Source: Tribonema minus (lineage: Eukaryota; Sar; Xanthophyceae; Tribonematales; Tribonemataceae). Taken from it: DNA of 64,000 nt. Below, piece by piece: positions 5,567 through 33,407 of this stretch. The stretch spans positions 186,001 through 250,000 of the forward strand of contig JAFCMP010000005.1 in the NCBI GenBank assembly GCA_017506865.1, read 5' to 3'. Made by a program: the position numbers and the translations under genes. Under the pieces are notes generated by a model, which worked only from the letters and a program-made list of their open reading frames with translations, was not told the origin of the DNA and did not search any database. The first letter of the stretch is position 1. Each line of letters opens with the position of its first letter.

Positions 5567-8500
5567 TCACCTGCCCTCGAAGTGCGCGGCGTGCTCCGTG
5601 AGGTCCGCCCAGCCCTCGTTGCCGGAGAGGTACGGCTCCATGCCGCGCACCATCTTGACAAAGCCGCGCTCGATCTCCTCCTGCAGCGCGCGCAGCAGCA
5701 GCGACGCCTCGGGCGCCATGGAGCCTGCGGCGGCGCCGCGCGCGTTTGGCAGAGCAGACGCGCCGATTGGTCAGTCATTGCGTGTGTCAAATGCCCACAG
5801 GTAAGAGTAGTGATGGTTCCTGTTCCAGAGGTGGACATTGTGCAAAAGTGCGAAGGCCCTGTTAACTGTGCCGCGCGCTATATCAGCAACCAGAGCCGCA
5901 CTCTGTTGTTCCGCTTGCTGCAGCAGCGCCATCGGGCCCGAGGCCATGCACGCCATCCAAGCTCGCGAATGACGTCAGCAGCTACATGAGAGCCACCACG
6001 TGCATGCACAGGACAGAGCGCCTTGACGAGCAGCACTCAATTGCTTCTGCAGTAGCTCCTGCTGCCTTGGAAGTCCGCTGAACCGCAATGCAGGCACGGC
6101 GCAGACCACTCGCCATTGTCACAAGACCCCCTGCTGTTGCCAACGCCGCCGCCGCAGCCGTTGATGCCACTGCCCAACCTAATGCGCTGCGCCAGTGCCG
6201 AGTTTAGAGACATCCTGTCGACACGATCTTAACGGGAAGCATTCTTCTGCTCTCAGCCACAATATCACACAAGCACAGTATTCAGTGCCACTCGCACGTC
6301 GTCGAAGGACGCGCCGCCGCCGCTGCCGCCGCAGCTGCCGCTGCCGCCGTGCATGACGCATGGGAGCAATACCAAGAGGCCGTGACATTGCAAACTACAA
6401 ATGAGGACAACACTTGTTCAATACCGCTCACCGTCGTCGAAGGACGAACCGCCGTTGCCGCCGCCGCCGCCGCCCACACCGACGCGCTGCGCGAGCGCCG
6501 CGCTAGGCGACGTCGGCAGCGCGCCGCCGCCGCCGCCGCCGCCGCCGTCGCCCGGCGGCGGCGGCGCGAGCACGCAGCGCGCCTTGATGATGAGCTGGTA
6601 GCAGAGGTCCAGGAAGAGGACGAGCGTGCGCGTGAGCGCGGCGCGGTGCGCGTCCGCCTGCGCGGGCGTGGTGAAGGGGATCGGCGGGTGCGCGCCGCCC
6701 TCGCCGCGCTTCAGGAACGTCTCTGCGACTTCCGTCGCGCCGCCGTTCACCTGTTGCAAAGCGACGTCGCGGCATGCGGCAGAGGTGCGAACGCGGGCGG
6801 TCAGCGGTTTGCAAACTGGTGCACACTGGATGCTCAATCGCCGAAGCTGCTGCATGAAACGGTGGGTGTGGGCTTGAGGAACGTCGCCGCGACCTCCGTC
6901 GCGCCGCCGTTCACCTGCGCCGAGGCGCCGAAACACGCAGCGCAAGTCGCGAACGAGGTTTGTTGGCAATTGGGGATTGGTGCACATTGGAGACGACATC
7001 CCTGAAATAGTTGCGCGACTGGTGTGTGTGTGCTTGAGGAACGTCTCCGCAACCTCTGTCGCGCCGCCGTTCACCTGCTCAGGGGTGCCACGAAACACAC
7101 GGCAGAGGCGCGAATTAGACCTGTTGGCGGCTTGCTGATTGGTGCACGCGGTGGGGACGGAATCGCTGAGACTGTTGCACGATTTGGCGAGTGCGCGCCG
7201 CCCTCGCGCTGCGTTGGGAAAAACTGCTGCGCTGCCTGCGCCTCGCCCGCCGTGTGCTGCGGACACGCACGCCACGAGCGACGCGCGCGCAGCCTTGCAA
7301 ATGCAGCGTGCCAGCTGCTCATCCACGGGTCTGTGTGACAGCAAACGCGCTGAAGCAATCGCGTAAAATGTGGGGGATGCGCGCCTCCACCAATGGCGGT
7401 CTGATACTGTCAGTGCCATCTGAGGAGGCGTCGCATGCACCTGCGAGTTCTGGCGCTTGCTTTCGACGGTCAATGCCCGCCGCGTCCTCACGCATCACAC
7501 GCGGTACACGTGAACCGATGTTGGAGTACACAATGAGTTCATGGCGAACTCTTGACAACATTCGGGTGACAGGGTCAGGCGTACGCCTATCGCGTGCGCA
7601 GCCTACATACACACCTGCGGCAGCACGGACCCCTGCACGAGCTGCATGAGGTTCTGCGTGTTGTTGCGCTTGCGCCGGTCGATGCCCGCCGCCACCTCCT
7701 CGCGCATGACGCGTATGCGCGTCTGGATGTCGTCGATGGAGCACTCGATGGGGCTCAGGAAGCGCACCGCGCGGTGCGCGACCCTCTGTCGGCTGGTGCA
7801 GCACGGGAACGGCTCCGGCACGTGCAGCTCCGTGAGCTTCTTGCACTGCTCGCTCGTGGTGCCGTGCGCCTGATCAGGTTTAGGGTTAGCGAAGGTAGTT
7901 AGGGTTACAGTTGTAGGGCTAGGGTGAGAAATGATGGTGAGTGTTTACAAGCGTCTGCTCGCTCGTGGTGCCGGGCGCCTGCTCGTGGGTAGGGTTACGG
8001 GTTAATCGCTCGTGGTGCCGTGCGCCTGCTCGCGGTACGTGCAAGCAGTTTGGGGTTATGGTGGTAGGGGTAGGGTGAGAAACTGAAGGTGAGGGCAAGC
8101 GCGTGGTGCCGTGCGCCTGATGGGGGGGATGGATTAGGGGTGTCATGGTTGTTGGGATAGGGATTGAGCGCAAGGGTAAGCTCGTGGTGCCGTGCGCCTG
8201 CTCAGGATCAGGGTTTGAAAATGATGGTTACGGTTACAGTTACAGTTGTAAGGTGGTTGTAGGGTTAGGGTTAGGGGTCGAGGGTGAGCTTGACTGCTCG
8301 CTCGTCGTGCCGTGCGCCTGCTCGTGGGTAGGGTTAAGGGTTGATATTTAGCGTAAGGGGTGTAGGTTTAAGGTTAGGGTTAGGGTTTGAAGGTGAGGGT
8401 AAGCTCGTGGTGCCGTGCGCCTGCTCAGGGTTAGGGTTAGGGTTTGATGGTTAGGGTAAGGGCTGCGGGGTTAGGGTCGAGGGTTAGGGTTAGGGGTTGG

Positions 8501-11500
8501 TGGTTGATGGTTAGGGTTGCGGTTGTAGGGCTTGGGTTGGGGGTCGAGGGTTACGGTAAGGGTCTGCTCGCTCGTGGTGCCGTGCGCCTGCTCGGGGTGA
8601 GGGTTAGGGATTGCATGATTGGGGTAATGCTTGTGAAGTTAGGGTTGGGGGACGAGGGGTAGAGAATCGCTGCTCGTGTTTTACATTTCGGAGTGGTGCG
8701 ATGTTCATCGCCTTGCCGCTGGACGTGAAGGGCGTGCTGAAGGAGCACGCGCGCTGTTAGCGGAAGGCGCACACGCGCTAGTATGTAGTGCAGGGCATGC
8801 TGGTGCGGCTGTTGCAGCATCTCGACCTAAAAACACATACACAATGGCGCACACAGGAGTCTTGCATCCACCGTAAATCACGCTCTAGTCTGCATGACGC
8901 GTTGCGCTGCGTATTACTTGGTGAGCAAATGGTATCCTACTGACAATGTGCTCTCCAGCACCTGCCTCCAATACGCGAGCCAGTGCTTCTTTCACCTGGC
9001 TGCCGCAGGATGTGAAGGACGTACTGGAGGCAATAAAAATAAAAAAATAAAATAACGCATCCTCGCCGTCGCCGCAAGAATACTGTGGAACAGAAGTCAT
9101 CCCTTCAAGAATCGGGGGCCACTCTGGTTGAACTCCTCTGCGTTCGCACTACTGTCGCTGGTATCGAGCACCACAACTTTCAAATATCACTTTACTTCCA
9201 TACGCGGCTTGAAGCTGAAGTCTCACAAGTTTCAAAAAAACGCTAACTTGCATCAAAAGTGAAGCAGTACTTCTAATAAATATTTCATGACTCGTGTTCC
9301 AGTCGCACCGGATCTCCTGCAGGTTTTGCGCTACTGTTACTGTTACTGTTACTGTAGTGCCTCTTTTCGCCCACCTTGCCTCTGGACATTAAGAGCATGC
9401 TAAGGCAGAAGAACATGCATCCTCGCCATCGCTACAGTACGCGAGTACTGTGGGGTGAATGAGAGTCGTCCTTTCAGGAATAGTGTTTCAGTTGAGTTGC
9501 CGTCCTTGTTCAGTTGCACTACTGTCGCTTGCATCAAACGCTATGTACTTTCACCCCACCTTGCCGCTGGACGTGAAGGGCGCGCTGAAGGCAAACACGC
9601 GTACATCCTCGCTAACGCCACGAGAGTACTTTGGGGTAAATCAGTCTTTCAAGAGTCGTGTCTCAGTGGGAATCCTCGTTTGCTTGCACTAGTATCGCTT
9701 TGATCGAGCATTGTGGACTTTCATCTCACCTTGCCGCTGGACGTAAAGGGCGCGCTGAAGGCAAACGCGCGCGCCCTCGCCATCGTCAAACACCTCCACA
9801 CACGGCGCGACGCTAAGTCTTGCAAGTAACGCTACCTTGTGTCAAGACTGCAGCAACACTTCAAGAGTCATGTTCCAGTCGCATCGCGTCTGCGCTTCTA
9901 TCACTGTCACCGTAGCGCACCTTGCCGCTGGAGGTGAAGGGCGTGCTGAAGGCGAACACGCGCGCGCCCTCACACGCGGCTCGGAGCTGAGGTCTTGTAC
10001 GTATCACCAACTCATGTCAAAACTGAAGCAACGCTTTCATGACTCGTGTTCCAGTCGCATCGCATCTGCGCTTCTATTACTGTCACCGTAGCGCACCTTG
10101 CCGCTGGACGTGAAGGGCGTGCTGAAGGCGAACACGCGTGCGCCTTCCCCGTCGTCAAACACCTCCACACGCGGCTTGACGCTGGTAATCTTGACAAACG
10201 CGTTCACGCATGCGGGGTCCGCCGCCAGCGCCGCTTCGTCCGCGGAGTCCGGCAGCACCTGCGGTTTAAGACCGCGTGCATGTATGCCCATCAACGTCAA
10301 ACACCAGCAGCCAAATAGCGACAAGAGTCTGGTGCGTGAGGTGCGACGGCTTAGGATTAAGGTAAGGGTCTTGACAAACGCGTTGACGCACGCGGGGTCC
10401 GCCGCCAGCGCTGCTGCGTCCGCGGAGTCCGGCAGCACCTGCGGTGCACGCATCAAATACGCATACGCGCATACGTAGGTATCAGGTATACTCAAGCCGC
10501 AAGGCTGGCCTCATGTGCAGCAGCACCTGCGGTAGGGAAAATGGGCGTAGGCTAAGGGTAGGGTCTTGACAGAGGCGTTTCACGCAAGCGGGGTCCGCCG
10601 CCAGCCAGCGCAGTACCTGCGATAATGGGACCGCGTGCACATGTGCCCATCAATGCCAGACACCAGTCATCAGATTTCAGGAAGAATCTTGTGCGTGAGA
10701 CGCAGAGCTACGATGGCTCAGGGTTAGGGCTAGGGTAAGGGTCTTGACCAACGCGTATAAGCATGCGGCGTTGGCTGCCGGCGCCGCTTCGGTGCAGGGG
10801 TAGGAGAGGGGTATGCACGTATTTGCTCTGAATTAGGGTTAGGGTTAGGGTTTGTCAAAAGCCGGGCGCCATACACTGTCAGCTAGGTGAACTCGCAGAG
10901 CGCTCCTTGGGAAGTAAAAAAGTACTTTTTATTAATTCTCGCTCAGGGCGCGAAAAAGCCAAGATGAATGGCATTTAACTTGAAGCTTGCTGTACGGAAT
11001 CTACATGTTGTGTGACAGTCTGAACAAGTACATGTTATAACAGTCTACCACGTAAATAAGCTCGCATCTTAATGCGGTCGGGGCTCGAGACAAGCGGGTG
11101 CACGAGCGCGAGCACGCCCCTCACACATAACAAATGCGGCAGGCTCTGAGTACATGCATGTGCACGTCAAAGTCTACCTAATCACTAATAACCTGGAAAT
11201 ACATACACCTTATACATCATTTATCAGCAGATGAGCGGCAGTTTCACCTTGATTCGGTCGGGGCTCGAGACGAGCGGGTGCACGAGCGCGAGCACCCCCC
11301 TCTGGAACTCCCCGATCTGCGTCATGAGCGGCACGCGGTACACAAACTCCTGGCCGCGCAGCTCCGGCGGCAGCGCTCCCCAAAAGCCGACGCGGAAGAA
11401 GGCGCCGATGCCGCCGAGGCCCTGCGCCTCCTGCGCGGACGCCTTGCGCATGTACGCGCCGATCTCGTTGTGCGACTTCTCCATCGACTTGTAGTCGCGC

Positions 11501-14500
11501 TCCGTGCGCGCGACGGCGAGGCTCTCGCTGTACGCCTGCACCGTAGCGAAGGTACAGAGCGGAGCGGCATAATGCATGAGCATGATACAAAGCAGAGGTG
11601 TAATACTTGAAGTATGGCATCTCAGAAGTGTGATCTCGTTGTGCAACTTCTCCATCGACTCGTAGTCGCGCTCCGTGAGCGCGACGGCCAGGCTCTCGCT
11701 GTACTCCTGAAAGACATGGATCAGACCGTGTTTTGTTTCAAAAGGTGTAGCATTTGGTGCTTGCAAGTACATGTTCGTGAGAAGCAGGGGTAGTGTATAC
11801 TTGATTGGAGTGTGCTTTGATTATCTCGTTGTGCGACTTCTCCATGGGCTTGTAGTCGCGCTCCGTGCGCGCGACGGCGAGGCTCTCGCTGTGCGCCTGC
11901 GCAGGTTGTATGGAACAGTGCATGTACTCGAGAGGTGTGCAAGTGTAACATGTATTTGATTTGGAGGGTGCTTTGGGTATATGTTGCGGTGCGACTTGTC
12001 CATGGGCTTGTGGTCGCGCTCCATGCGCGCGACGGCTCTCGCTGTACGCCTGCGCGCGCGCCGGTGACGTGGAGCGGCGTAAAAAATGAGTACTACACGA
12101 GTACAAGTACATACGATACTTTGAAGATCGTAGTGCGACGCTTGCATCATCTGGAAGTCACGTTGTGTGCGCGTGTGTTGGCGGGGCTTTTGCTTTGTGC
12201 CCTCGCCGCGGCACAGGTGTAGAGATGGAGTGTCAGTCGCGAACTTCAAAGCACTTGTTCACGTACACTTCGAGTATGTTGCATCTCGCTTAGAGAGAGC
12301 AATTTGAGCGTGAGCAATTCCAATGACCAAACGATGCCGTTCAATGACCATGCAGCAAAGGTTATATATATACTTCTACATGTTGTTGGACAAATCGGGC
12401 GGGCGTCGTCACAATGTCAATTTCAGCACAGCTCATACATACCCCACACCTGCTGAGCGAGGATGGGCAGGCACGCCTCGGCGAGCTACGCCCCCGCCTG
12501 ATTGGCGTGGCCCAACAGTCAAACTGCAACTTGAACACGGTCAATACATACAGCACACCTGCTGAGCGAGGATGGGCAGGCACGCCTCGCCGAACCTTTC
12601 CCCCCGCCTTGTTGACGCATAGATGTGTCAACTTCAACTGAAACACATACATGCATACCCCCATACCTGACCTGCTGCCCCCGCCTAGTTGGCGCACAGG
12701 TGTGTCACCTCCACTTCAACAGAGTCAATACATACATACCCCCATACCTGCTGAGTGAGGATGGGCAGGCACGCCTCGCCGAACCTTTCCCCCCGCCTTG
12801 TTGACGCATAGATGTGTCAACTTCAACTCAAACACATACATGCATACCCCCATACCTGCTGCCCCCGCCTAGTTGGCGCACAGGTGTGTCAACTGCAACT
12901 TCAACGCACATGCATACCCCCATACCTGCTGAGCGAGGATGGGCAGGCACGCCTCGCCGAGCCGCGCCCCCGCCTGGTTGGCGTGCCCCAGTATGTCGCG
13001 GCGCAGGTCCTGCAGCGAGCCCCATGGCCGCAGCGGCGCGTGCGCCGCCGCCTCTGCCGCGCAGCGCCCGCGCAGCAGTTCGGGGCCGCCGCCGATGCCG
13101 CTGAGCAGTGGTGCAGGCGCGGGGGGGAGGAGGAGATGAGCGCAGCCGCCGCGTAAGTCAGTCACTTGTTTATATATATATAAGACCGGAATCGGCGCTA
13201 TAACATGTTGATGCAAGTGGCTCATCAGCTGGTCGTTAAGACTGTGGATAGAAGTGCGCCGCCGCCTCCGCCGCGCAGCGCTCGCGCAAGAGGTCGGGGC
13301 AGCCGCCGATGCCGCTGAGCGGCGGTGCAGGCGGGGGGGGTGGGGGGGGGGGGCAGCGTGATGAGTCAACCGGATTCTTGAAGAAAGAACTGGTGCCACT
13401 TGATACAGGCGGAGCAAAGCACAATGTGCTCTGCGTGTACGCAGAGGTCTCACGTTGATAGCTGCCCAATTGAGCATGCGCTGCCCGCCCTAACCCTAAC
13501 CCTAACCCTAACCCTAACCCTAACCCTGCCCGATGGCTTCGTGCTGCATGCGTACAGACCTCAGTCACGGCAGTAAAGAAGTATATCGCAATTGCACTGC
13601 TCCCTTCACATGTATAAACAATCAAGGATTGTCAATCATGGTACTACTTATGTGGCAGCGCTCTTACCCAGCGCCGCTCAGCGTGCGCCGCCCGCCGGCG
13701 ACTGAACTGCAAGCGCACTGCGCTTTTCGTGTGCGCGGCAGTCCCATGTCATGTCTTTACTGAATGTCAGCGCAACGCCTTTTGCGCGTGCGAAGCAGAC
13801 TGCGCAGACTATAGTTCAAACGTTTTCTATCTCACCCAGCGCCACTCAGCGTGCGCCGCCCGCCCGCGATAGCGCCGCGCAGCGGGCGCGGCTTGCCGAG
13901 GCGGTCCCATATGGGCAGGCAGCACTTGAAGCCCTGGTAGATGCGCATAAGGCACTGCCCTTGCTCCGCATGGTTGTTGAACATCTGGTGGTACTCGGCC
14001 AGGGTGAAGAGCCAGTCCGCGCGCTGCGGGGAATGGTGGGGGCGGGGGGGGGGGCAGTGAGTGTTTGTTCATTGCGTATTGGGCGAACGGGCGAGGGAAA
14101 GGGGGGGGGTGTTGGGCAGTGAGAGTTTGTTCATTGCGTACAAGGGAGGGGGGGGGGGGGGGGGGGGTCGCCAGTATTGAGGGCACTATAAGTCAGAAGC
14201 TTCTTGAAGCATGCTGATCGCCGCGCGTTAGCAGGGTTGGTGACAATGTTGGGTGCGCCGCGGCACCGCCGCTGCGTGGCATGACCAGAGCGCAGGTCTG
14301 TACGACTCTACCCGCATGCATCCACAAGTGACTCTCACCTGCATCGGCAGCTCCGTGCACAAACACACGTGTGCGCAGCGCAGGAAGAGCTCCTGCATGG
14401 GCTCCATGACTGTACGACTCTACCCGCTTTGGCAAGTGACTTCACCCGCATCAGGAGCTCAGTGCGCGGACAACACGTGCGCGCTGCACTGAGAAGCCGA

Positions 14501-17500
14501 TTCTACGACTCTACCCACGCATACTTAGGGTGAGTGAGTGAGTCTCACCTGCATCGGCAGCTCGGTCGCGGAGAACACGTGCGCGCAGAAAGTGACTCTA
14601 TGACTCTACTCACGCATGCATGGACGAGTGACTCTCACCTGCATCGGCAGCTCGGTCGCGGAGAACACGTGCGCGCAGCGCAGGAAGAGCTCCTGCACGG
14701 ACTCCGCGTCCATGTCGGTGGCGCCAACGCCGCACCAAAGGCGCGCGCTCTGCACGCCGTAGCTGTCGAAGCCCAGCGCGCGCGCCGTGTCAGCGCTCGC
14801 CGCCTTCACCAAGTACCTAGGGGGTGGGGGGGAGGGGGGGCGGGACGACGAGGGGGTGCAAGCACGCGAAGCAGACATGGTGATACATGGTGCAGATTGA
14901 GCTCAGAGTATTGTGGGGGCGAAGAGGGCACGAGACCGCGAAGCGCATATGGCGCAGTGTGAGCACAGAGTAGGTATACATGCATGTAGTCTATGAGAGG
15001 GTCATCGCAGCGCTCAACGCCTCCCCAAGGGGGGCCTCCAGCAGGGTGCACGAGGGGGGCGGCACGCGCGCGAGCCGGGTGGGGGGTTACGTGGGAGAGG
15101 CTTGGCGGGGGGACGCGGGGGGCGCGTGCAGCACCATACCTACATACATACCTGAGCTTGAGCAGGTAGGCGCGCTTGACCAGCAGCAGCTCGCCGACGA
15201 GGGCGCCAAGGCGCTGGACAAAGCCGGGCGGCGCCGCCGCCGCCGCCGCTGCCGCCGCGGCGCCGCGTCCGTCGCGCATCTCCGCGAGGCTGCGCTCTAG
15301 CGGCGCGAGGCAGGCGACGGCGTCCTCCACACTGCGCACCTGCACGTGTTGGGATGTGGCACGTAGGACACGTGTGTGTGTACGTCAGGGAAGAAACTGA
15401 GTCTGCAGTAAAAGTTGAGCATCACTGCGAGGCTGCGCTCGAGCGGCGCGATGCATGTGACGGCGTCCTCCACGCTACGCACCTGCGCGCGCCGGCAGGC
15501 AACACGTAGGAACACATGTGCGTACTACGTCAGGAAATAACATGGTGGCACTGTCTCATGGCTGATTGCTGCAGCAGCGGCGGCCACGGTCATCGGTGGA
15601 GGGCACTGGCGGCCGACCACGCCTTGTCACCTAGAGCTCCACGATCTTCTGTATCGTGCTGCGTACCTGCGCCGCCGACAGCCGGCACGTAGAAACGTGT
15701 GCACGTGTGAGGGAAGAAAGTGACGCCACAGTAAAGGTTGAGCGTTTTTGGGGATTGGTGTGACGCATACGTTAGCATGTGCATATGTCAGGGAAGAAAT
15801 CGACTCGCAGCAGAAGTCCAGCGTCGTGGGGACTTGGAGCGGTGGGTATGCAACCGAAGGGTCGCGTGCGTTCCGCGTGGCTGTCGCACATCAGAGCGGC
15901 AGTGAGGTTCGACTGTGCCGACATAACTTCAACACTGTTGTCATCAACTTCAACAAATGCTCATGTCCAACATCATGCAGTAAAGCACTGCTTTTGAAGT
16001 AGCAGCATTCGATGTAATTCACGTGCGCTGACCTTGGAGTCTGTGGCGCCGACGCCGTTGCCGCTGCTGCCGACGCCGTTGAGATTGATGGAGCAGGTGG
16101 GGGATGTTGGACGGCGCCGTTCCAGGTCGCCGCTTTCCAACGCTATCACATCCTGATGGGGGGTGGGGGAGGTGAAGCAGTGTGAAGGTTGTCGCTTTCC
16201 AACGCTACGACATCCTCCACAGGGGTATTCACGACAACCTCCAAGGGGGGCCGTGTGTGTGTGTGTGTTTGTGTGTGTTTGTTAGGCGGGATTTGATTTG
16301 ATCTGATATGAAGCGCTTGGCGAGGGGCAGTGGCCCCTTAGGGTTAGGGTTAGGCTTGCTTCGCGCAACCACACCTGAAGGGGCCAAGCAGGGGCAATTT
16401 GTGGCACAATCGGCATTTGCTCGTGGCGCAGACGTTTGCCGGGTGGTTGATGCTGTCCATACAGGGAGCAGGGAGTAAAGTTGAAAGGTAACGCAAGGCG
16501 CGGCGCTCACCGTCACACACAGCGGGGGTAGGTAAGTATGCATGTGCACCTCCCGCATCCCCCGCGCCGGGGTAGGGGTATGTACCTAGTGCCGTGCCGC
16601 CACCGTGCGCCGGAGGCGAAACAACAACGCGAGCGCTCGCCTTGGCGTACACCATCAGGTATGTTTGTGCAATGACGCGAACTCCCTCGCGCCTGCGACG
16701 CGCCGACGCTGGTGCGCGCGCGCCGTACATACATAGACACATGTGTAATTCGAAGTATGCGTATACATACATACATGGAGGGGTCGTGACACACACGCGC
16801 GGGCCAGAGCACGCGCTGCCGAAACCCTGGCGTTAACCCTCATTCTGATGCTAACCCTAACCTTCGACGTCACCTTGCAGATTTGACACACATCAGACGC
16901 GCAAGTTCACCTTGAAGATGGCCAGCAGCGGCGTGCGTATGGGGGAGATGGAGCCGTACGCGTGGTAGGTTAGGTGCAGCAGCAGCGCCAGGAAGTCACG
17001 CGCCGAGCAGCGGACGGCCGCCCTGGGGTTGTTGCTGCGCGCGTGCGCAGGGGGAGGGAGGGGCGTCTTGTCAGGTGCCGTCGCTGACACAAACTCTTAT
17101 AGATGCCAGGAAGCAGCGTCAGCGATCGCAGGTGTCTGATTGTGCATGTGAGAAGCGGCGCTGCGACAGCACGTGCCGGTCTGTGCTGGAAAGCGTGTCG
17201 CTACAAAATCACTGTCGCGTGCGCATCGTGCAGCGCTGCTCAGCGGCCCGCATTAGCTCTTCGCTGCACAGATAAAGGACAAACGAGCCAGTGTGTGACC
17301 GCGCCACGCGGCAGCCGGTCCTGCAGTGCGCTGCCGCAGCAGCACCAGCACTCAGCAGCGGCCCGCACCTTCTGCTGCAGGAGACGACATCCTCGCAGCG
17401 ACAGCAAAGATCGGCGACCCTACACCCTAACTTAACCCTAACTTTAATCCTAACCCTGTTTTCGCTGCAAACGGCGACTTCCTCTCAGCACCAGCAAATA

Positions 17501-20500: not shown

Positions 20501-23500
20501 GCGACCGTCTGGTACCTGGCTCGCACGGTATGCCAACCGACTATGCATCAACCACCGCACATCAGAGCGAAACGCGTACCTGGCGTCGTAGGCATGCTGC
20601 ATGAGCAGGCCGCGCAGCAGCGCGAGGCCCTGCGCCTTGACGGCGTCGCACGCCACACTTCACATACTTGAAGTAGACAAAATGGGATGCCGCGCAGCGG
20701 GCAAAGTGGGAATTCTGCGCGCCGCGAGCAAAGTACCTGGCGTCGTAGGCGTGTTGCGTGAGAAGGCCGCGCAGCAGCGCGAGGCCCTGCGCCTTGACGG
20801 CGTCGCAGGCGTCGTCGAACGCCGCCATGCACGCGCCCAGCGCCAGGTCCGCCAGCCAGTGCGCCTCGACGCTGCGCGGCGACGCTGCGTCTGCGCACAT
20901 GAGGGCACGCACAAGCATGGCGCATGAGCATGCTGTGGTAAATCCAAATAAAAGTACTTCACTGAAGTTTGGATGGGCCAGCCAGTGCGCCTCGACGCCG
21001 CGCGGTGACGTTTGGCTCTGCGCACACAGTTGACACACACGAGTCATATGGCGCACGAGCACGTGCGGCGGTAAATACAAGTTGAAGCATTCAATCGAAG
21101 TTCAGATGGGCCAGCCGGTGTGCGCATCAAAGCTCCGCGAGGACGCCGCGTCTGCACGCAGGGGCGGGCACGAGTAGTGGTGCATGAGCACTGTGGAGTA
21201 TGCCATCAGTTGAAGTGTTTGCTTCAAGTTTGGACGGGCAGTGCGCCTCGACGCTGCGCGGCGACGCCGCGTCTGCGCACACAGGGGTGCGCACGAGTCC
21301 GGTGCATGAGCACTGTCCAGCATGCTATAAGTTGAAGTATCTAGTTGAAGTTCAGGTGGGCCAGCCGGCGCGCCTCGACGCTGCGCGGCGACGCACGGGG
21401 GCGCACACGAGTGTGGTGCGTGAGCCGTGACGCATGCTATAAGTTGACGTACTTAATTGAAATTCGGATGGGCCAGCCAGCCAGCGCCTCGACGCTCCCC
21501 GGAGGCGCCACGCACGCACCCACGCGGCCGCATTCACGCATGCACGAGTGCGCTCTGCAGGCAGTGGCTTCAAGTACAGACTTGTCAGCAACTTGAAGTA
21601 CATACACTTGTCGATCAGGTCTTCGGCACTCCACGGAGGTGCCGCACCTGTGCTCGGGGGGCGCGCACAAGTGCGGCGAATCGCGATTCGAGCTCGACCA
21701 TTCCGCATCCTCATGCACCGTCCGCGCGCGCAGTCCACATTGCAGAGCTCAGCGACGTTGAAGCCGTCTTCGTGTACTTCAACAAAGCGCGTTGTCGCGC
21801 ATTACGTGCCACCCTCGCCCGCGGGCGCCGCCAGCGGTATGTCGAGGCTGACGGTGCGCGAGTGCGCAGCGAACGATCGCGCCGCTACCGCTTTGTCCAC
21901 AATCACATCACGGTCCAAGTTGGGCAGTTTTGCGTCCACCTACACAACCAGCCGGTAAACACCGCACAGCTCAGGGACCGTAACAACATTGTCGTTGCGT
22001 GCGTTTCAATGACAAAGTCCTCAGCTGGTGACGTGCCGTCGCTGCCCGCAAGCGCCGCCAGCAGCGCGTTGAGGCCGATGCGCATCGAGCTGGCGCTTTC
22101 TTCCTTGAGCTTCAACAACACAACGACCTCAACGGGTGACTCGCCGCCCTCCTCACCTGCGCGCGCCGCCAGCGGCGTGTTGAGGCTGACGGCGTGCGGG
22201 TGCGCGGCAAGCGCGTGTGCTTTCTACTTTATAAACTTCAACAACAAGACCTAAACTGATGACGCGCCGCCCCCCCTCACCTGCGCGCGCCGCCAGCGGC
22301 GCGTTGAGGGTGACGGCGTGCGGGTGCGCGGCGAGCGCGCGCGCGAGCCCGAGCTGCAGGCGCACGTCGCCGGCGCCGCGCAGCAGCGCCCAGTACGCGC
22401 TCACGAGGCGCGCGCACTGCTCGCGCCGCGCCACCGCCAGGAGGTCGCGCAGGAAGTGCGCGACGCATGCGCCGTGCGCCGCCGCCGCCGCCGCCGCCGC
22501 GCCGCGCGGCCCGCCGGCGCCTGCACCTCAGCGAGCGGGGGAGGGCGAGGGGCGGCAGTGTCAGGGACGCCCGTTGAACGCGGTGCAATGGTGGAGGCGG
22601 CGAAGGAAAACACTTTGATTGGCAGCACGCACGCGCCGTGCGCCGCCGCCGCCGCCGCGGCCTGCGCGCCGCGCGGCCCGGCCGCGCCTGCGCAGCGAGC
22701 AGGGGCAATCTGCGGGCAGCGGCAGCAGCGCTGCCGAAGACGGGCACTGCGCTGGGCAGCATGCGCGCGCTGCGTGTCGGCGGCCGCCCGTGCGAAGAGC
22801 GCGTAGAGCGGCGCCCTCACTGCCAACCAAGGTGCGCTGGGCGGACGCGCCGTCGCCGAGGCGCGCCGGCGCGGTGTGCGGTGGTAAGGCAAGGCTTGCG
22901 ACACCGTGTGCGATGGTGCTCTTGCGCGGGGCGCCCGCTCCGCGGATGGGCCAGACACGGCGGCTGGGTTAAAGGTGCGAGATTCTGACGAGCGCCTGGC
23001 AACCTCACGCCACATGCGTCCGCATGATTGATTTGCCTCCGCCTGCGCCGCCACATATCCTGCGATCTGCTTGGCCATATGTGAACTTCAACAGCGCCAG
23101 ACTGCCTCACATCGCGTGCATTGGAGCATTTGCCGCCGCCCGTGCCGCCGTCCCTGGCTAGCTGCTCTCACACGCACACTCAACAATGCTCAAGCTACCT
23201 CCTCGCAGTCACATGCAACTTCAACAACGCCACTACCTCACGTCACGTGCGTCGGGGCCCTTGCCTCCACCCGTGCCGCCGTCACGGGCGAGCGGTGTGC
23301 TTGGCCACATGTGAACTTCAATAACGCCAGTCCACCTCATCACAGCACTCACCTCCGCCGTGTCGCCGTCTTTGGCTGGCTCGCACGCAACAACGCCCAA
23401 GCTGCCTCCTCGCAGTTCAACATGACGTATGCATGTGAACAGGGCTCGTGCAACATGTGCCGGTTCGTCACGCTCTGAAGCCAATATTCACCAGACCAGG

Positions 23501-26500
23501 CATCTGGGCGCAGGAACGTTTGCTTGCATGACACATCACATGCAACTTCAACAGCGCTCAAGTAACTCGCGTCGCGTGCGTCACAGCGCTTACCTCTGCC
23601 CGTGCCGCCGTCGCGGGCAATCTGCTTGGCCTGCAGCGCGAGCAGCCCGCCCAGCGCGCCGCGACCAGCCATACAAACTTCAACAGTGCCACTAGCACAC
23701 TTCAATAGCGCCCAACTACCTCACGCCGCGTGCGTCGGAGCCCTTACCTCCGCCCGTGCCGCCGTCGCGCGCGATCTGCTTGGCCTGCAGCGCGAGCAGC
23801 CCGCCCAGCGCGTCGAGCGTCCAGTCGTCCAGCTCCAGCGGCGCGCAGAGGCGCTCCGCGCACGCGCGCAGGCACAGCGACTTGAGGATCATACCCAGCA
23901 GCACGCCGGCGTACCTGAGCGGTGACGCACATATGAAGTTCAAGTTGAAGATGACACGGCGTGGCTGTGGCTGTGGCTAGAGCTGAGCGCGGCGCCGCGC
24001 GTGGGCAGCGGCGACGACGAGAAGCTGTGCGGCTGCGCGCGCTTGCGCGCAGGAAGTTCGAGGTGACGTTGACGCACGCGCGCGCAGCGGCGGACGGCTG
24101 AGGCATGTGATGACGCTGGCACTACGCGGCCGCAATGGCGCGGCGCGGCGATGGATGCGATGGCAGCCTGCTCTACCGCGTCAGCGACAGCCGCAGCTGA
24201 GGCTACTGTGTTGTGTCACACCTTGTGCACAGCGCTCAGATTTTTGTGCATCGTCGCCACATTCGATACGTCAGCTGAGCCAGCCGGGCTGTCCCCCCCC
24301 CCCGCCCGTTCTCTGAACCATCCCCCTCCCCCATCAGCGCTGCCTGCTAGAAGGTGCGGCCTCAACTTCAACTGCAATTGGTACCACAGCGGCTCGTTGA
24401 ACACGGGCCGCACAAGTCGTTAGGGATTCCAGCTGCAACTGAGACATACGAAGCGCCGAACGCGCCCTACACGCCAGTTGAACTACACACTGCAAACGTG
24501 GTGATCACCACAGGTATACGCGCACTTCGCATACCTCAAAGTACATATACTGTCCTTCTACACAGCACATGCGTGTACTCACATCTGAGCCAGGGCGCGC
24601 GCCTCCGCGCCCCCCTCCCCCCGGTACCTCCCCTCCCCCGCGCCCCCCGCCCCCCCCTCCCCCCCCTCCGCGGCAGCGCCCAGAAGCAGGCTCCACTGCG
24701 CGATCACCACCTCGTACAGCCACGGGTACCAGCGCTTCTCGCCAGCGTCCGTGCGCTCCTGATACCCCCGCAGCGGCGCACACGACCACCCCCCCCGGAT
24801 GCTCGCCGCGCGCCCCTCCCCCCCGCGCGGGGATCCCACGACGCGCTGCGGCGCCGCTGCCGCCGCCGCCGCCGCCGCTGCCGCCGCCGCTTTCGTCTTG
24901 GGCGCGCGCGCCGCGTACGCGTCCTCGAGGCGCCGCGGCGACCCCGCTGTGGGGGCCGCCGTGCCGCCTGATGAGGGGTATGTAGGTATTGTGCGTGTGT
25001 GTGTGTGTGATCACCTCTGCTGCGCTGTATATGCTGCGGTTCGCGCACGGCGGCGTGCGAGGTGATGCGCGCCGTATGGGGGTGCGCCAGCAACGCGCAG
25101 CGTGTGCCCCATACAAGTGCACATACATACTATATTGGGCATACATGCACGTGAACGCTCAGCGCCGCCATCGAGGCAGCAGCGCTCAGACCCTGACATC
25201 CTGTGCAGGTATGTAGATTTGTGTGTACGTGTGTGCCAAGTATGCGATGACCTGGGATCCTGGGGCCATCGCCGTGAGTGCGTGCGCATTCAGATCCGTA
25301 CAGCGGCGCAGAAGGGCAGGCGAGTGCGCAAGTGCACCCCCGAGAAAAGATGGCATGGCAGCAGCGGCGTGCGTCCCGCATGCTCCCATCCTCAAGCGGT
25401 CACAAATCTGTCAGCGGGCCGCCAACGGTTTTGACGCTGGCAGTTCTGAAGGGTGACCAAGTGCATCAACAGGCCTGCCCGGAGCGTCTCGCCTTCCGGC
25501 ATGGCAGCGGCGGGGGCGCCCAGTCCGTGCGGCGGCGGCGCAGCAGCGAGCCGCAAGGCCAGAGGCAGCATCAAGTCCCGGCAATCTTTGACGCTGGCAA
25601 TCGCAGATGGTTCATCAAGTGCACCAGCAGGGCTCTACGTGTCTCACCTTTTGGCATCGCAGCGGCGGGGGCGCCGAGTCCGCGCGACGCCGGCGGCGAC
25701 GCGGCGCGCGCCCCCGGCAGCATCAGGTGCGGCAGCCGCGATGGCGACGGCGGCGAAGGAGGCCGCACGGTTGCCTGCGGGAAGAAAGTGACGCATCTCG
25801 TCAGCGCCGCAGCCAAGTAGTGTTCATTCGAGTGCCGAGGACAGTGAATGCGATGACAGCACGCTCAGCTTCACGCTTGGGGCAATGCAGCGTCAGGTGC
25901 GGCAGCAGCGACGGCGACGGCGGCGAAGGAGGCCGCACGGCCGCCCGCGGGGCGCAGCTGTGCGGAGCGAAGAGTGTCGTCAGGGCAGCAGCCTTGCGTG
26001 GCGTTCATTCTTAGGGTTGGGGGTTAGTTTAGGGGTAGGGGTCAGGTAGCCCTAACCTCACCCTGCCAAAGACGGAAGTACGATGACACCAAGCTGAGGC
26101 TGCACTTCGGAGCGCTGCCGTGCCATGCCCTAACCCTTGCCCTAACCCTATACAAGACTACCAGGGGCTTGTGGTGCTCACCCAGCAGTTGCCGAGGACA
26201 GAGGCAGGGTGACGGCATACTGAGCTTTGCAGTCCTGAGTACTGCCACGTTGCGCCCGCCGTGATAACGCTCCCTGCGCTCTTCCTCTGGCTGACAGACG
26301 TGCAATTCTTCAGCATTTGTTGAAAAAGCATGTTCATTCTCTGTGTGAAACTGCACATGTTGACGGACAGCCCATCGCAGCTGCGCGTGCCGACAAAACA
26401 GACTGCCAGTCCTTCCGTACACCTGCCGCGCAGCACCAACCGTGCGGAGGCTCTGCGACGTGAACCCGCATGTGTCGACCAGAGAGACCGTCGCAGCTGC

Positions 26501-29500
26501 AAGCGTCAACAAGACAGACCATCAGTCCTTCAATACAGCCTAAAGACGGGGGGCAGGGCAGCAGTGCTCAGCGGTGCGCACCTGCAGGCGCGCGAGCGCC
26601 GCGGCGACGGTCGCCGGCGCGGGTGGCGGCGGCGGCGGCAGCGCGCCGCCCGCCTCCTCCGCCGCCATCGCCGCGTCCGCGGCGTCCTCCAGCAGCATGT
26701 CGTCGACCGCGGCGCCGAGGCCCGCGACGCCGAGCACGGCCGCGCTCGCCGCGCCGGCGCCGCGCGCGCTCTCGGCGACGGCGCTCGCGAGCCGCGCGCC
26801 GCCCCACGACACGCGCGACGAGTTGTACGCGCGCGGCAGGCGCGTGAGGCCGGCGGCGCGCGGCGGCGCGGCGGCGGCGGCGGCGCGCGGCGACGCGACG
26901 GGGGAGGAGGGGAAGCTGGCGCTCGCGCGCGCCGCCTCCGCGCGCGCGGCGTCGAGGGTCTCCGCGATGAGCGCCTCGCGCGTCTCAAGGAGGCAGCGCT
27001 CCGCGGCGGCGTCGAGGAAGCGCGTGGTGTGCGCGTCCACGCAGAGCGCGCGCTGCGGCGGCGGCGCGTGGAGGGAGGTGGAAACGGTGAGGCCGCAGCT
27101 GCGGGATGGAGCACTCACTGCTCAGTGGCCGGTTCACTGTTGCAGCGCACAGCATGCCACGCGGCGCTGTGTCAGAGCGTGCGCACGCGGCGCGTTATGG
27201 GGTGTGTGTAAGGGGAGACTGCACGCTTGCGCGCGGCGGGGCGAGAGCGCGCTGCGCCTGCGATGGCCCCTGCTCATGAGGCGGGCAGAACTGTTTCAGT
27301 GGTGCTGCATTGGCCCCGCCTCCAAGTAAGCGACAGCTCAGGCGGTGCCTCCGCACGCGCTGTGGCAGCTGCGGCAGACCATGATGTGCAGTCACGATGG
27401 AGATAATCCACACACGATACACTAGTGAAATCGTGATGGCAGCGCCTGCGCGCCCTCTGCAGCGATGACACATTTCAAAGTCAACAGAATCCGATATGCT
27501 TGTTGTAGCCTATGGCAGTCAGATGCTCATTGCCGTTAGCACGCTGGACGGTTACGGCAGTTGCACTTGCCAGTACACATACCACGATACAGTCGCTTCT
27601 AGCAGCACACGACCGGCGTCAGTCTTGTGTTGCATTGATAACCTTGACGTCTACCTCTGATGATGTGGATTCAACAGGCTAGTGAGTAGCAGCTCTCTAT
27701 GGACACTCGTCGCACCTGAGCGCTGGGCATGGCGGCAGCGGACGCGCCGGCAGACCACGACGTGCAGCTCACCATGTGCATTTGGAAATCCACGCAATAG
27801 ACAAGTGAAGTCGCGATGGCAGCGTCCACGCGCACTCCGCAGCAACGCCACACTTCAAAGTTCATCAGAATGCAAAAAAAACAAACTTGTCACACCTGAG
27901 CACTGGCCATAGCGGCGGCGGAAGCGCCGGCACCGGGCACATCCTCGTCTAGCACAAACTCCACCCACGCCTGCAGCAGCCTGCTGCCGCTGCCGGCGCC
28001 GCCGTCGTCGCCGCCGCCGCCCTCCTGCGCCGCCGCCGCCACCGCCGCCTTGTGCAGCACGCGCAGCAGCGCGACCATCGCCGCGCAGCGCAGCGCCGGC
28101 GCCGCCGCCGGGTCCGCCCACGCCGCCGCCTCCGCGCCCGCCGCTGCCGCCGCCGTGCCGTGCAGCAGGCAGCGCAGCAGCGCGCGCATCGCCGGCAGCA
28201 GGTGCGCGCGCGCCGCCCACGGCGCGACCGCCGCCAGGCCGTCCGCCGCTGCCGCAAGCGCCGCCTCGTCGCCTTCCGCCGCCGGCGCCGCCGCCGCTGC
28301 CGCCAGCGCCAGCGCGCAGGGCGCCACGGAGCTCGGCAGCGGCGCCAGCGGCGGCGGCTGCTTGCGCAGGAACTCCTCGAGCGCGGGGTCCTGGCAGTGT
28401 ACGGAGCTGACGGCGCGCGTCTGGATGCGCAGCGCCATGCCGCCGGCGACTGACGCCGCCGCCGCCGCCGCCGCCGCGGCGACGGTGGGCGTGCCTGCGG
28501 TCGGTGCGGAGAGGGCACGAGGGACGGGAGATCGGGGCGGCGCTTGTTGTGAGGCGGGGCGGTGGCTGTTGCCATGCGCTGCCGCGTCTTGGGCGACGCA
28601 GATGAGTGTGAAGTGAGCGATGGGGTATCTGTGAGCACCGAGTGGTGTTGCGCGGGCAAGCAGGAGCTGCGGGCAGGGGGGCACGGTAGCAGACGGGGAA
28701 TCGCTGAGCTTTGCGAGCAGTCGCTTGCCGGTGGGAGCAGGCGGGCGGCAGCTGCAGCAGGCCTGACCCTAGCCTGAGCATAGTGCAAACCCTGCCTGGC
28801 ATGCTAACCTTAAACCTACCCGGCAGTCACAGAAGGTCATGACGCATGAAACGCAAACCCTATTTGGCCCGTACCTGGCGAAACTGACACGGTCGCGGCA
28901 AACCAAACCCTAGACAAAGCCTAACGCAAACCCTACCTGGCGATGCTGACACGGATGAGGGGGTTGCAGCAGGCCTAACCCTAAACTGAGCCCAATGCAA
29001 ACCCTACCTGGCGATGCTAAACCTAACCCTGCTTGAAGTCAACAGAATCATGTCGCATCAGACGCAAACCCTACCTGGCAATGGTGACGCGGAGGAGGGG
29101 GTCACAGCAGGCCTAAACCTCCACTGAGCCTAACCCGAACCCTACCTGGCGAAACTGACGGTCGCGGCAAACCAAACCCTAAACTGAGCCTACTGCAATC
29201 CCTACCCGGCGATGCTGACACGGAGGAGGGGGTGGCAGCAGGCCTAACCCTAACCTGAGCATAGCGCGAACCCTACCTGGCGATGCTCACCGTAACCCTA
29301 ACCCGAAGTCACGACGCATCAAACGCAAACCCTACCTGGCGACGCTGACACGGAGGAGGGGGTCGCGGGCGACGTGAAGGTGCCGCTGCCGGCGGTGGGC
29401 GTGCCGGCGTCCAGCGACTCGCCCTCCAGCCCCGCCTGCGTGACGCGCAGCGGCAGCATGTGCACGCCGTCCTCCAGCAGCGCTCCGTTCCTGGTAAGGT

Positions 29501-32500
29501 AGGCATGTAGGATTGGCATTAGTGTTAGGGTTACGCAGGTGCGATGCGCGCAGCGGCAGCATGTGCACGCCGTCCTCCAGCAGCGCTCCGTTCCTGGTAG
29601 GGTAGGTATGTAGGGTTAGCATCAGGGTTATTGAGGCGCTCCGTTCCTGGTAGGGTAGGTATGTAGGGTTAGCATCAGGGTTATTGAGACGCAATGTGAC
29701 TCGCCCTCCAGCCCCGCCTGCGTGACGCGCAGCGGCAGATGTGCAGCACGCCGTCCTCCAGCAGCGCTCCGTTTCTGGTACAATGTAGGTATGAAGGATT
29801 GAATTAGGGTTGGGGTTAGCGAGGCGCGATGCACAGCAGCGTTTGAATTAGGGTTACTGAGGCGAGACGCGCAGCGGCGGCATGTGCACGCCGTCCTCCA
29901 GCAGTGCTCCGTTCCTGGAAGGGGTAGGTATGTAGGGTTACATGAAGGTTAGCTTTATCCAGGTGCGAGACGCGGCGGCAGCATGTGCACGCCGTCCTTC
30001 CAGCAGCGCTCCGTTCCTGGTGGGGTAGGCAAGTAGGTTTAGCATTAGGGTTAGGGCTACCCATATGCGAGGTGCAGCGGCAGCATTTGAATCAGGGTCA
30101 GCTATGCGTGATGCACAATGCAGTATGTTCACGTCATCCTCCAGCAGCGCTCCGCTCCTGACGGGGCAAGTAGGATCGCATGAGGGTAAGGGTTACACGG
30201 GTGCGACCCTCGCAGCGGTGGCATGTGCACGCCCATGGTAACGTAGGCTAGCGTTAGGGCTAGGGGTGCAGCAGCGCTCCACTCTGGGCAGGCGCAGGTA
30301 CGGTCAGTGGGACGCGATGCGCATTGCTGCACTTGCATGCCATCCTCCGGCGACGCTGCGTTCCTGGTGGGCCTAGGCAGTGCTAGTGTCAGGGGCGGAG
30401 TCGGCAAGCCGCATCGAGCATGGCTGCTGCCACCCGACCGCGGCTCTCCAACTCCCGCCGTCGCCGTCAGCTGAGCAGCAGCAGCGTGGCGGCGTCCTGC
30501 AGCAGTGCTCCACGTCTGGCGATAGCAAGCATCAGCCTCAGAATCGGAGGTACTAGGGTGGGCAGGGTGCGTCAAACACGACCACCACCAGATAGCGCTA
30601 CATAGAACAGCATTAGCTTCTTCCGCCGAGTGGCGCATTCATTCCGCACCTGAGCAGCGGCAGCGCGGCGGCGCCCAGCACCTCCTCCACGGCGTCCTCC
30701 GCCTGCGCCTTCCCGAAGCGGCTCGTCTTGCGCTTGCAGTGCACGTGGTAGACGGTGAACACCAACCTGTGGCGCTCCGCGAGCCGCCCCGGCAGGCGCA
30801 CCTTGACCTCGTCGCAGCCCTGCGGCGCGAATGTGTGGTGCGAGACCGTCGACACGTACTCGCCCGCGAACGCGCCGCCGCCGCGCCGGTGCGCGTAGAC
30901 CGCAGGCAGCGCCGCGCCCCACGCGCCCTCGCCGCCGCCGCCCTCCTCGCGCAGCTCCACCGCGACGGCGAGGTTCCTGTGGCGCATGCGCTCGAGCCCC
31001 TCCACGTACACGTACAGGTGGTTGCGGTACGCGGCGTGCATGTGGCCGAGGCCGCCGCCGCCGCCGCGCTGCGCCGCCGCCGCGCCCTGCAGCGGCAGGT
31101 ACTGCACCTCGCGCACGAGGCGCTCCGCCGGGACGGCCAGCGCGTCCGCGTCCGCGAGCACGGGGTCCACGAGCACGTCGCCGCCGCCGTCGGCGCCCCA
31201 CGCGTGCGGCGGCGCGGCGGCGTCGGGGCGCGCCGCGCCCGCGAGCAGCGCCGCCGCGCCCGTCGCGCCGACCGGCTCCGCGGTGCAGTGGAAGCGGCCG
31301 TCGAGCGCGGCGAAGGCCTTGGCGCGCGGCCCGTCGGCGGCGCTCGCGTCCATCACCGCGCACATGAGCGCCTCCTCGCTCAGCGCCTCCGCCTGCTTGT
31401 ACAGCTGCACGGCGCGCTCGCCGGCGGCGACGGCGCCGCCGCCGCCGCTGCTGCCGCCGCCGGCTGCCGCGAGCGGCGCCGCGCCGAAGCCCACGGGCTG
31501 GCGGTAGCGCCAGAGGCGCGTGGCCGCCTCGAGCGCGTCCGCCTCGACCTTCTTGCCCTTGCCCTTGGCGTAGGGCATGAGGACGGTGTCGGGGTCGCCC
31601 TGTAGAACTTTGGTCACCTGCAGGGGGAAGGGGGGGAGGGTCGAGCGGCGCGTTTGCAGAGGCCTGTGATTACCCCCCCAGTCCCCACCCCGTTGTGTTT
31701 CAGGTCGGGGGCTACGCGGAGGTGGTGCGGGATGCAGCACAGGGGGCTCCTGGGGGGCCGGTGCCTTGGTGTCAGCGTTAGCGAGCTCCTCATGGGGACA
31801 AGTAGTGTGCTCTGTGTGGTGGTACCGTGGTGGCAGCGTTGTACTGCATCCTGCAGTACATTCCTCTTTTCGGTGGCTTGGCGGTGCCCTTCTCCCCTGG
31901 AGTTACTGCGTCACGTTCGTGTGCTTGTGGCTGCGCCGCAGTTCGCCGTGCAGTTCGCTATGCGCGAGGGGGAAAGGTGTCGTGCTTTGCCGCGCACGAG
32001 TGTCTGCCGTACGCGACAACAGATATCTGAAGAACCAGTTTTCAGAAGGTGGACAAGTACTGTAACGCAGGCAAGTTTTGAGCGTTGCTGCAACTGGAGG
32101 CTGCAGCAGGTGGTGTCAGTCTGGTGTGTTCGTGTTCAGTTTGTGAAGCCACTTTACTGCCGGCTCATGGTCATCAATGTGCTTGCCGGCGGATTGTGCA
32201 GTGACTCTAATCCTAACCTTAGCCCTAACCCTGATCCTAACCCTAGTCCTAAACACGATACTCAGGAGCATCAGGACTGCGTGCTTGACACGCAGACAGA
32301 CGCAAGCGCTTCTGCTCTGATACCCAAGAGAGCCTTCAGGCTTTGCTGTGATGCTTGTCAGAGCTACAATCCTCGATCTCTCCTTGAATTTTTCTGCAGC
32401 ATGCTTGCGCTTGCCGCCACCGCCACTTCAGCTCCAGCACGCCGAGCTGCACTGCCTACCAGGGGCATGTTGAAATCACGCAATGCGCGGAGTATTGTTG

Positions 32501-33407: not shown

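Follow-up and report, generated by a model that had tools for sequence, protein, structure and literature searches.

Can an intron grow out of the exons on either side of it? This question is raised by a DOCK-family gene on the minus strand of Tribonema minus contig JAFCMP010000005.1, which runs from position 33407 to approximately 5569 of the window (the 64-kb stretch of assembled sequence that was analyzed, to which all counts below refer). The lengthening of introns is usually attributed to transposons and unbiased insertions, but the original prediction for this locus held that almost every intron is built from copies of its own exon edges. We re-derived the genes of the window with a purpose-built gene finder that uses codon and splice-signal scores and ignores repeats, which gave 36 introns and 72 splice junctions, with 23 exons and 22 introns in the DOCK gene (an extra DOCK intron is possible, as the finder also proposed a donor at 5571). 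When junctions were searched with exon and intron sequence together, at least one intronic copy was found for 38 of the 72 junctions, in 26 of the 36 introns and in 17 of the 22 DOCK introns, close to the figure of at least 18 of 23 DOCK introns claimed before. The earlier observation is therefore confirmed: it is stronger than first described in its specificity for junctions, and weaker both in the strict order of the copies and in the claim that almost every intron is built in this way.

The strongest evidence is the concentration of repeats on splice junctions. There are 37 direct-repeat arrays with an offset of up to 700 nt in the window, and 33 of them cover an annotated junction. For the 35 arrays associated with introns, sliding each one randomly within its own intron plus 120 nt gives an expectation of 9.5 over a junction, compared to the 33 observed (P = 1.5e-18), and when only arrays whose best pair is at least 90% identical are considered, 11 of 12 cover a junction while 2.1 are expected (P = 1.6e-8). 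The most surprising point, which had not been raised before, is that hardly any tandem duplications lie wholly within introns. The 10.8 kb of junction zone contain 33 arrays and the 33.7 kb of intron interior only one (or two), so that by hand arithmetic surviving arrays are of the order of 50-100-fold denser at junctions. Those off the junctions include a telomere-like array 12 nt from the donor of DOCK intron 13 (17374-17594), an array in a GCC-rich DOCK exon with an alanine-rich product (27992-28255), the sole wholly exonic one among the 37, and a dispersed repeat outside any gene model (58939-59170). The donor-side exon copy in DOCK intron 10 (20576-20810, minus strand) was also counted as non-covering, its alignment ending 65 nt before the junction; because of its offset, we consider that the duplicated unit spanned the junction.

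Such a distribution could in principle arise without any new mechanism if tandem duplication were untargeted and survivorship did the rest, with exonic duplications purged and old ones visible only beside a conserved exon. Junction copies should be detectable longer, perhaps twice as long, because they are compared with a conserved exon while intronic copies are compared with a drifting intron. Given this possible detection bias, we repeated the search with all exons and all found exon copies masked, leaving intron sequence only. At E<=1e-6, 9 of 13 arrays were still located within 60 nt of a junction compared to 2.3 expected (P = 2e-5), and at E<=1e-3 this was the case for 16 of 21 compared to 3.5 expected (P = 5e-10). 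The masked arrays away from junctions mostly fell within junction-covering arrays, namely all four at the strict threshold and four of five at the loose one (the exception is 56048-56184). Survivorship also predicts that wholly intronic duplications should outnumber those at junctions, the reverse of what is seen, and the bias persists both under this intron-only detection and in the pairs of at least 90% identity. The ends of coding sequences (CDSs), which are likewise conserved on one side, offer a further control. No copies within 1 kb were found for nine CDS-only queries, of which two are alternative AMPK stops and one is an uncertain ATG, leaving seven counted ends; 0 of these 7 predicted ends, a small sample, have copies, compared to 38 of 72 junctions (P = 0.012; the matching junction figure from exon sequence only is 37 of 72). 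For these reasons we consider survivorship unlikely, if still worth keeping in mind.

The copies belong to the introns in which they are found. In a search with 120-nt exon flanks (exon sequence only, E<=1e-3), 37 of the 72 flanks matched their own intron (89 hits), and two flanks matched it on the reverse strand. Windows from exon interiors (n = 18) had no hits in their own introns and 24 in other introns. Of 95 copies, 82 reach the junction or stop at most 12 nt short of it, and the exon part of a copy measured 16-100 nt with a median of 46.5 nt, compared to the 30-105 nt proposed earlier. The pattern also recurs outside the DOCK gene, as had been claimed for five of its neighbors: copies were found in the single intron of the TPR gene, one of three introns in the plastid membrane-protein gene, one of two in the DUF3119 gene, all four in the 7TM-RGS gene, one of two in the AMPK-beta gene and, in addition, one of two in the PIP30-like gene. 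Introns with more copies tend to be longer (Spearman 0.52, P = 0.001), although longer introns also have more room for copies. Recognizable edge-derived sequence makes up approximately 26% of non-terminal intron bases, and the remaining bases show a weak excess of similarity to their own edges (mean rank 0.60 of 1, P = 0.016, n = 60). The statement that almost every intron is built from exon edges is therefore overstated.

This tie between each intron and its own exons is also what separates the arrays from mobile elements. Introners have been reported in several algae and dinoflagellates, where, according to excerpts of these papers, many introns have been altered by repeated sequence (PMC9481584, PMC7789003, PMC11453091), and dispersed repeats are present in our window as well, so insertion of introner elements, or of reverse-transcribed pieces of pre-mRNA, into introns had to be weighed. 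Introners are shared among loci and generate new introns, and those of Amoebophrya are described in the same excerpts as bordered by direct repeats of 3-5 nt (PMC7789003, PMC9481584, PMC11453091), whereas each array here consists of the edge of its own exon and adjoins it. A sequence family common to many introns did not emerge from the comparison of exon flanks (rather than whole introns), where only 45 of 2520 non-cognate flank/intron pairs matched (81 hits). Among the 25 of these 45 pairs that are listed, 9 are between neighboring introns and 10 are onto the GC-rich DOCK introns 8 and 22; our guess is that the rest reflect low complexity. Taken together, inserted elements seem a very improbable source of the copies.

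The duplicated unit is stereotyped. The offset of the first copy has a median of 152 nt (interquartile range 128-178), and a unit of about 150 nt comprises a median of about 47 nt of exon and about 94 nt of intron, in other words an exon end, the splice site and the start of the intron. Random coverage of junctions would spread the exon share evenly between 0 and 1, which is not observed (Kolmogorov-Smirnov P = 2e-7, or P = 2e-5 for the 27 units whose intron homology is clear). The length of the exon part does not differ between donors and acceptors (P = 0.91). The skewed exon share is not in itself proof of targeting, because exon parts could also become shorter if long, exon-like decoys are selected against. 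The nucleosome-like size of the unit may be suggestive. Spacing between copies is array-specific (analysis of variance P = 1.4e-4, Kruskal P = 0.0019; the test left out 9 of 75 spacings, those above 250 nt, after which 3 of 21 arrays were left with one spacing), which suggests that, once a first duplicate exists, further units of the same length arise as the exon edge and its copies exchange sequence. Intronic minisatellites similarly consist of head-to-tail units whose period is specific to the array and which probably multiply by unequal exchange or slippage, and the arrays described here likewise contain head-to-tail units of similar length. They differ from minisatellites in that a splice junction anchors nearly all of them and in that many copies look directly derived from the exon edge.

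The position of the copies within the intron bears on whether the introns themselves were born by duplication. Excerpts of earlier work describe how tandem duplication of exonic AGGT segments can give rise to new introns (PMC3443670, PMC4974935), with the piece between the duplicated signals becoming the intron. As in that Rogers-type process, tandem duplication here involves exonic, genic sequence carrying splice signals that is absorbed by splicing, and some exons start with GT after the AG of the intron. Intron birth by this route, however, predicts that the 5' end of the intron duplicates the downstream exon and its 3' end the upstream exon, whereas here 41 of 43 donor copies are in the 5' half and 37 of 39 acceptor copies are in the 3' half. 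The unit also already includes intron sequence and spans an existing junction, so that existing introns lengthen rather than new ones arising, the copies are at the ends opposite to those predicted, and dozens of junctions in a single window are affected. We therefore see very little chance that the copies record the birth of these introns. The related claim that donor copies keep to the donor side and acceptor copies to the acceptor side was borne out, the order being violated in 0 of 87 comparisons; since tandem duplication makes it automatic that donor copies are never downstream of acceptor copies, this rule adds no evidence. Another parallel is the potato RdRp gene, for which an excerpt describes a tandem duplication that included an intron-exon structure and its splice signals and mentions another duplication, of 83 bp, within an intron (PMC4974935), but that case concerns a single locus that gained intron and exon sequence and not arrays of edge copies. 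Excerpts of a review of intron evolution (PMC3488318) and of a paper on gained introns in Symbiodinium (PMC4201569) contain nothing comparable, and systematic duplication of exon edges as a mode of intron growth was not recognizable in the titles and abstract openings of the matches listed from the open-licence literature.

Once formed, the copies appear to be left to decay. Per-position conservation in copies is mostly 0.75-0.95 on the exon side and mostly 0.55-0.8 on the intron side. Among donor copies the GT survives in 25 of 36 and among acceptor copies the AG in 23 of 32, or in 25 of 34 and 23 of 29 when copies of reference borders that are not GT or AG are excluded (two donor and three acceptor copies, owing to a GC donor and to borders 4 and 6 nt off). 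Splice dinucleotides are thus not kept above neighboring bases, since with an exon-side identity of about 0.87 at each base, about 0.75 of them should survive by hand arithmetic. In DOCK copies that reach within 12 nt of the junction, mismatches to the exon at codon positions 1, 2 and 3 number 73/925, 51/913 and 106/918 (0.079, 0.056 and 0.115; P = 2e-5). We attribute the roughly two-fold ratio of third- to second-position mismatches to free drift of the copy together with drift of the exon at silent sites only, although constraint on the copies could contribute. This last point would be in keeping with copies that are themselves selected, whether as spare or decoy splice sites, as recursive-splicing sites or as splicing enhancers near the borders. 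With a simple matrix, 30 of 65 copies come within 0.5 bit of the real site or exceed it (a slack of ±4 nt favors the copies, and 3 of 68, from intron RGS.i2 with its wrong border, were left out), and in 7 of the 22 DOCK introns (1, 7, 10, 14, 15, 19 and 21) the next exon starts with GT, giving the AG|GT form of a recursive splice site. With dinucleotides retained no more than decay predicts and the codon pattern as expected of drift, we regard selection on the copies as improbable; as far as tested, the copies decay neutrally and selection for them is not needed. Since so many of them are about as good as the real site, the cell must nevertheless choose among similar sites.

The divergence of the copies also speaks to the quality of the assembly. 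Long tandem arrays are prone to assembly error, and it is assembled sequence that was analyzed, so an artefact of assembly or of haplotype merging could be suspected. The copies, however, differ from the exon, with identities of 77.5-100% in the 15 arrays of at least three copies, and they do so with the codon-position pattern described above. They are also located at splice junctions, which are invisible to an assembler, making an artefact extremely improbable.

Junction-spanning tandem duplication itself is well supported, and we hold with moderate confidence that the exon-intron borders in this window are tandem-duplication hot spots that are recognized as splice junctions, where copies decay and exchange adds units. 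A signal must then exist at splice junctions, yet not inside introns nor, as far as tested, at CDS ends. R-loop edges and polymerase pausing at exon borders are candidate triggers. We favor splicing- or transcription-coupled breakage at exon borders followed by unequal exchange, with the trigger itself put forward as a proposal. The border could be recognized as a splice junction through a paused polymerase or through the boundary of an R-loop, where exon RNA covered by protein gives way to bare intron RNA, and staggered breaks or template switching there may produce the first duplicate of about 150 nt. By the gene model, the outer copy remains the real splice site and the inner one turns intronic and decays, as far as tested neutrally. 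Unequal exchange between the exon edge, which selection keeps clean, and its copies might add more units of the same length. Decoys could be tolerated if exon definition pairs the closest sites across an exon, which would always be the outermost. Excerpts of work on human data and minigenes report such a cross-exon proximity preference in splice-site choice (PMC9225289), and in this organism the same rule would probably pick the outermost, correct sites. More tentatively, a mutational process coupled to splicing or to co-transcriptional exon recognition may repeatedly duplicate border DNA, with introns in this lineage lengthening by neutral edge copies. If so, RNA splicing would be linked to DNA mutation through a process acting on splice junctions, the copies would be datable fossils of duplication events (the exon constrained, the copy decaying), and the splicing machinery would be forced to choose among many similar sites.

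Several observations weigh against the reading of the borders as duplication hot spots, and the history of the arrays offers evidence on both sides. Of 87 copy pairs, 65 have no derived base in common (21 of them come from the acceptor of DOCK intron 20, whose copies of 18-24 nt hold little information), and neighboring copies resemble each other no more closely than distant ones do (similarity 0.881 and 0.891, P = 0.56). Many copies therefore look as if each had been derived separately from the exon edge and not from one another, which agrees with the original idea of repeated tandem duplication across junctions, as do the junction enrichment and the composition of the unit. Shared derived bases, however, number 41 compared to 10.1 expected under independence, a four-fold excess, so that some copies must derive from copies, or the exon has changed since. 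Along with array-specific spacing and a clear internal duplication of a neighbor pair on the donor side of DOCK intron 18 (array 12431-12990, minus strand, junction 12925), this indicates that arrays also expand from existing copies. Strict growth from the borders inward would predict an age gradient, and the one observed is weak. The nearer copy is the better preserved in 51 pairs and the worse in 29 (P = 0.018), but the comparison of nearest and farthest copies (14 and 5, P = 0.087) and the negative within-array rho in 12 of 15 arrays (P = 0.076) establish a trend and not the strict rule that had been stated. Inward growth thus fits the data in outline, while a strict age order is not established.

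Other points on the same side concern extent and controls. At the junction-copy threshold, 10 of the 36 introns have no copy, and approximately 74% of non-terminal intron bases are not recognizably edge-derived. In the masked search, two arrays near junctions lack a junction copy, namely the telomere-like one in intron 13 and, at the loose threshold, one on the donor side of intron 5. The CDS-end control rests on few ends, and inspection by eye did not reveal a common breakpoint motif. The gene models are predictions from sequence, and at least two borders are off by 4-6 nt. Finally, the excerpts on human splicing show only a weakened upstream preference for acceptors under exon definition (PMC9225289), which makes the decoy argument weaker for acceptors.

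Within the DOCK gene, all of the arrays are on the minus strand. The acceptor-edge array of intron 21 (6708-7182, junction 6750) has two copies, that of intron 20 (7840-8651, junction 7869) has 6-7 copies with telomere-like CCCTAA spacers, and that of intron 2 (29416-30233, junction 29490) has 5-7 copies with CCCTAA-like spacers. Further acceptor-edge arrays are found in intron 19 (10189-10791, junction 10258), intron 18 (11461-12055, junction 11535; three copies), intron 12 (17895-18517; three copies at a spacing of 167-182 nt) and intron 9 (20844-21512; four copies, spacing 121-134 nt). Acceptor-edge copies are present in introns 17 (13040-13340), 14 (15276-15540), 10 (20287-20520), 8 (22463-22705; GC-rich and of low complexity) and 5 (25717-25951). 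On the donor side, intron 20 has an array at 9370-10183 (junction 10096) with an extra copy at approximately 8708-8754, intron 16 has three copies spaced by 90-107 nt (14298-14705), intron 12 has three copies spaced by 136-151 nt (18657-19249), and intron 3 has an array with TTAGGG-like spacers (28753-29366). There are also donor-edge arrays in introns 9 (21809-22344) and 8 (23062-23815), an array at the donor of intron 4 (27372-27932), and donor-edge copies in introns 19 (11065-11302, junction 11247), 17 (13662-13869) and 6 (25430-25695). The donor copy of intron 22 is in GGC-rich sequence and is weak.

Beyond the DOCK gene, the minus strand contains an acceptor-edge copy in intron 1 of the TPR gene (1995-2293, junction 2050; 87% over 90 nt) and, in intron 3 of the plastid membrane-protein gene, an acceptor-edge copy (36037-36401) and a donor-edge copy (37219-37475). 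The donor of this last gene model at 37418 is a GC donor (AAG|GCAAGT), whose intronic copy reads GCGAGT. The 7TM-RGS gene, on the minus strand, has donor-edge arrays at 51366-52015 (three copies, spacing 180-182 nt, about 100 nt of exon), 53197-53752 and 56669-57056, as well as an acceptor-edge array at 53753-54538, where the likely true acceptor is 6 nt from the first model border. A minus-strand donor-edge array at 48924-49608 has an exon part of only 15 nt and belongs to exon 49594-49712, which serves twice, as the last 7TM-RGS exon and as the first PIP30-like exon. In the AMPK-beta gene there is a donor-edge copy (61630-61881, minus strand), and the true donor is probably 4 nt away from the modeled one. 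On the plus strand, intron 1 of the DUF3119 gene has an acceptor-edge array (41351-41836). Doubtful borders affect introns RGS.i2, RGS.i3, AMPK.i1 and AMPK.i2, and all four were kept among the 36; for the junction-copy counts the RGS.i2 acceptor was shifted by 6 nt and the AMPK.i2 donor was left as modeled.

Pfam places DHR-2 lobes B and C above the cut-off in the DOCK model and lobe A below it. Among the neighboring gene models (TPR, plastid membrane protein, DUF3119, 7TM-RGS, PIP30-like and AMPK-beta), DUF3119, AMPK1_CBM and AMPKBI are above the cut-off, TPR is found below it only, the fused 7TM-RGS/PIP30-like model gives a sub-threshold DUF4604 only, and the plastid membrane-protein model has no Pfam match. 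The labels 7TM-RGS, PIP30-like and plastid membrane protein come from reading the translations. Scans of the window with Rfam (gathering threshold) and for tRNAs were empty, and one scan of viral contigs yielded no relative of the DOCK gene. In one gene model, a signal peptide is followed by an AFAP motif (..LAFAPRTLQ.., 38726-38833), which we take to be typical of proteins targeted to red secondary plastids, and the AFAP-like presequence of this single model would suggest a secondary red plastid.

The window also contains repeats of other kinds. Telomere-like hexamers are common in its introns, with 37 TTAGGG and 41 CCCTAA in 39 kb of intron and none in annotated exons (for example at 13488-13527, 17504-17549 and 8427-8518, and also at 62827-62866). 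In gene sense, 29 of 37 TTAGGG are in the 5' half of the intron and 31 of 41 CCCTAA are in the 3' half, but a few arrays dominate these counts, and we have not used them as evidence; CCCTAAC is branch-site-like. A dispersed repeat family of about 120-150 bp, with 72-80% identity, is found at 15540-15657, 41458-41624 and 62555-62695. Less diverged is a dispersed repeat, about 233 bp long and A-rich at one end, found at 34788-35020, 57135-57367, 58865-59170 and 10919-11024; two of its copies are 99.6% identical and one adjoins a predicted 7TM-RGS exon, and it is possibly a recently active element resembling a short interspersed nuclear element or an introner.

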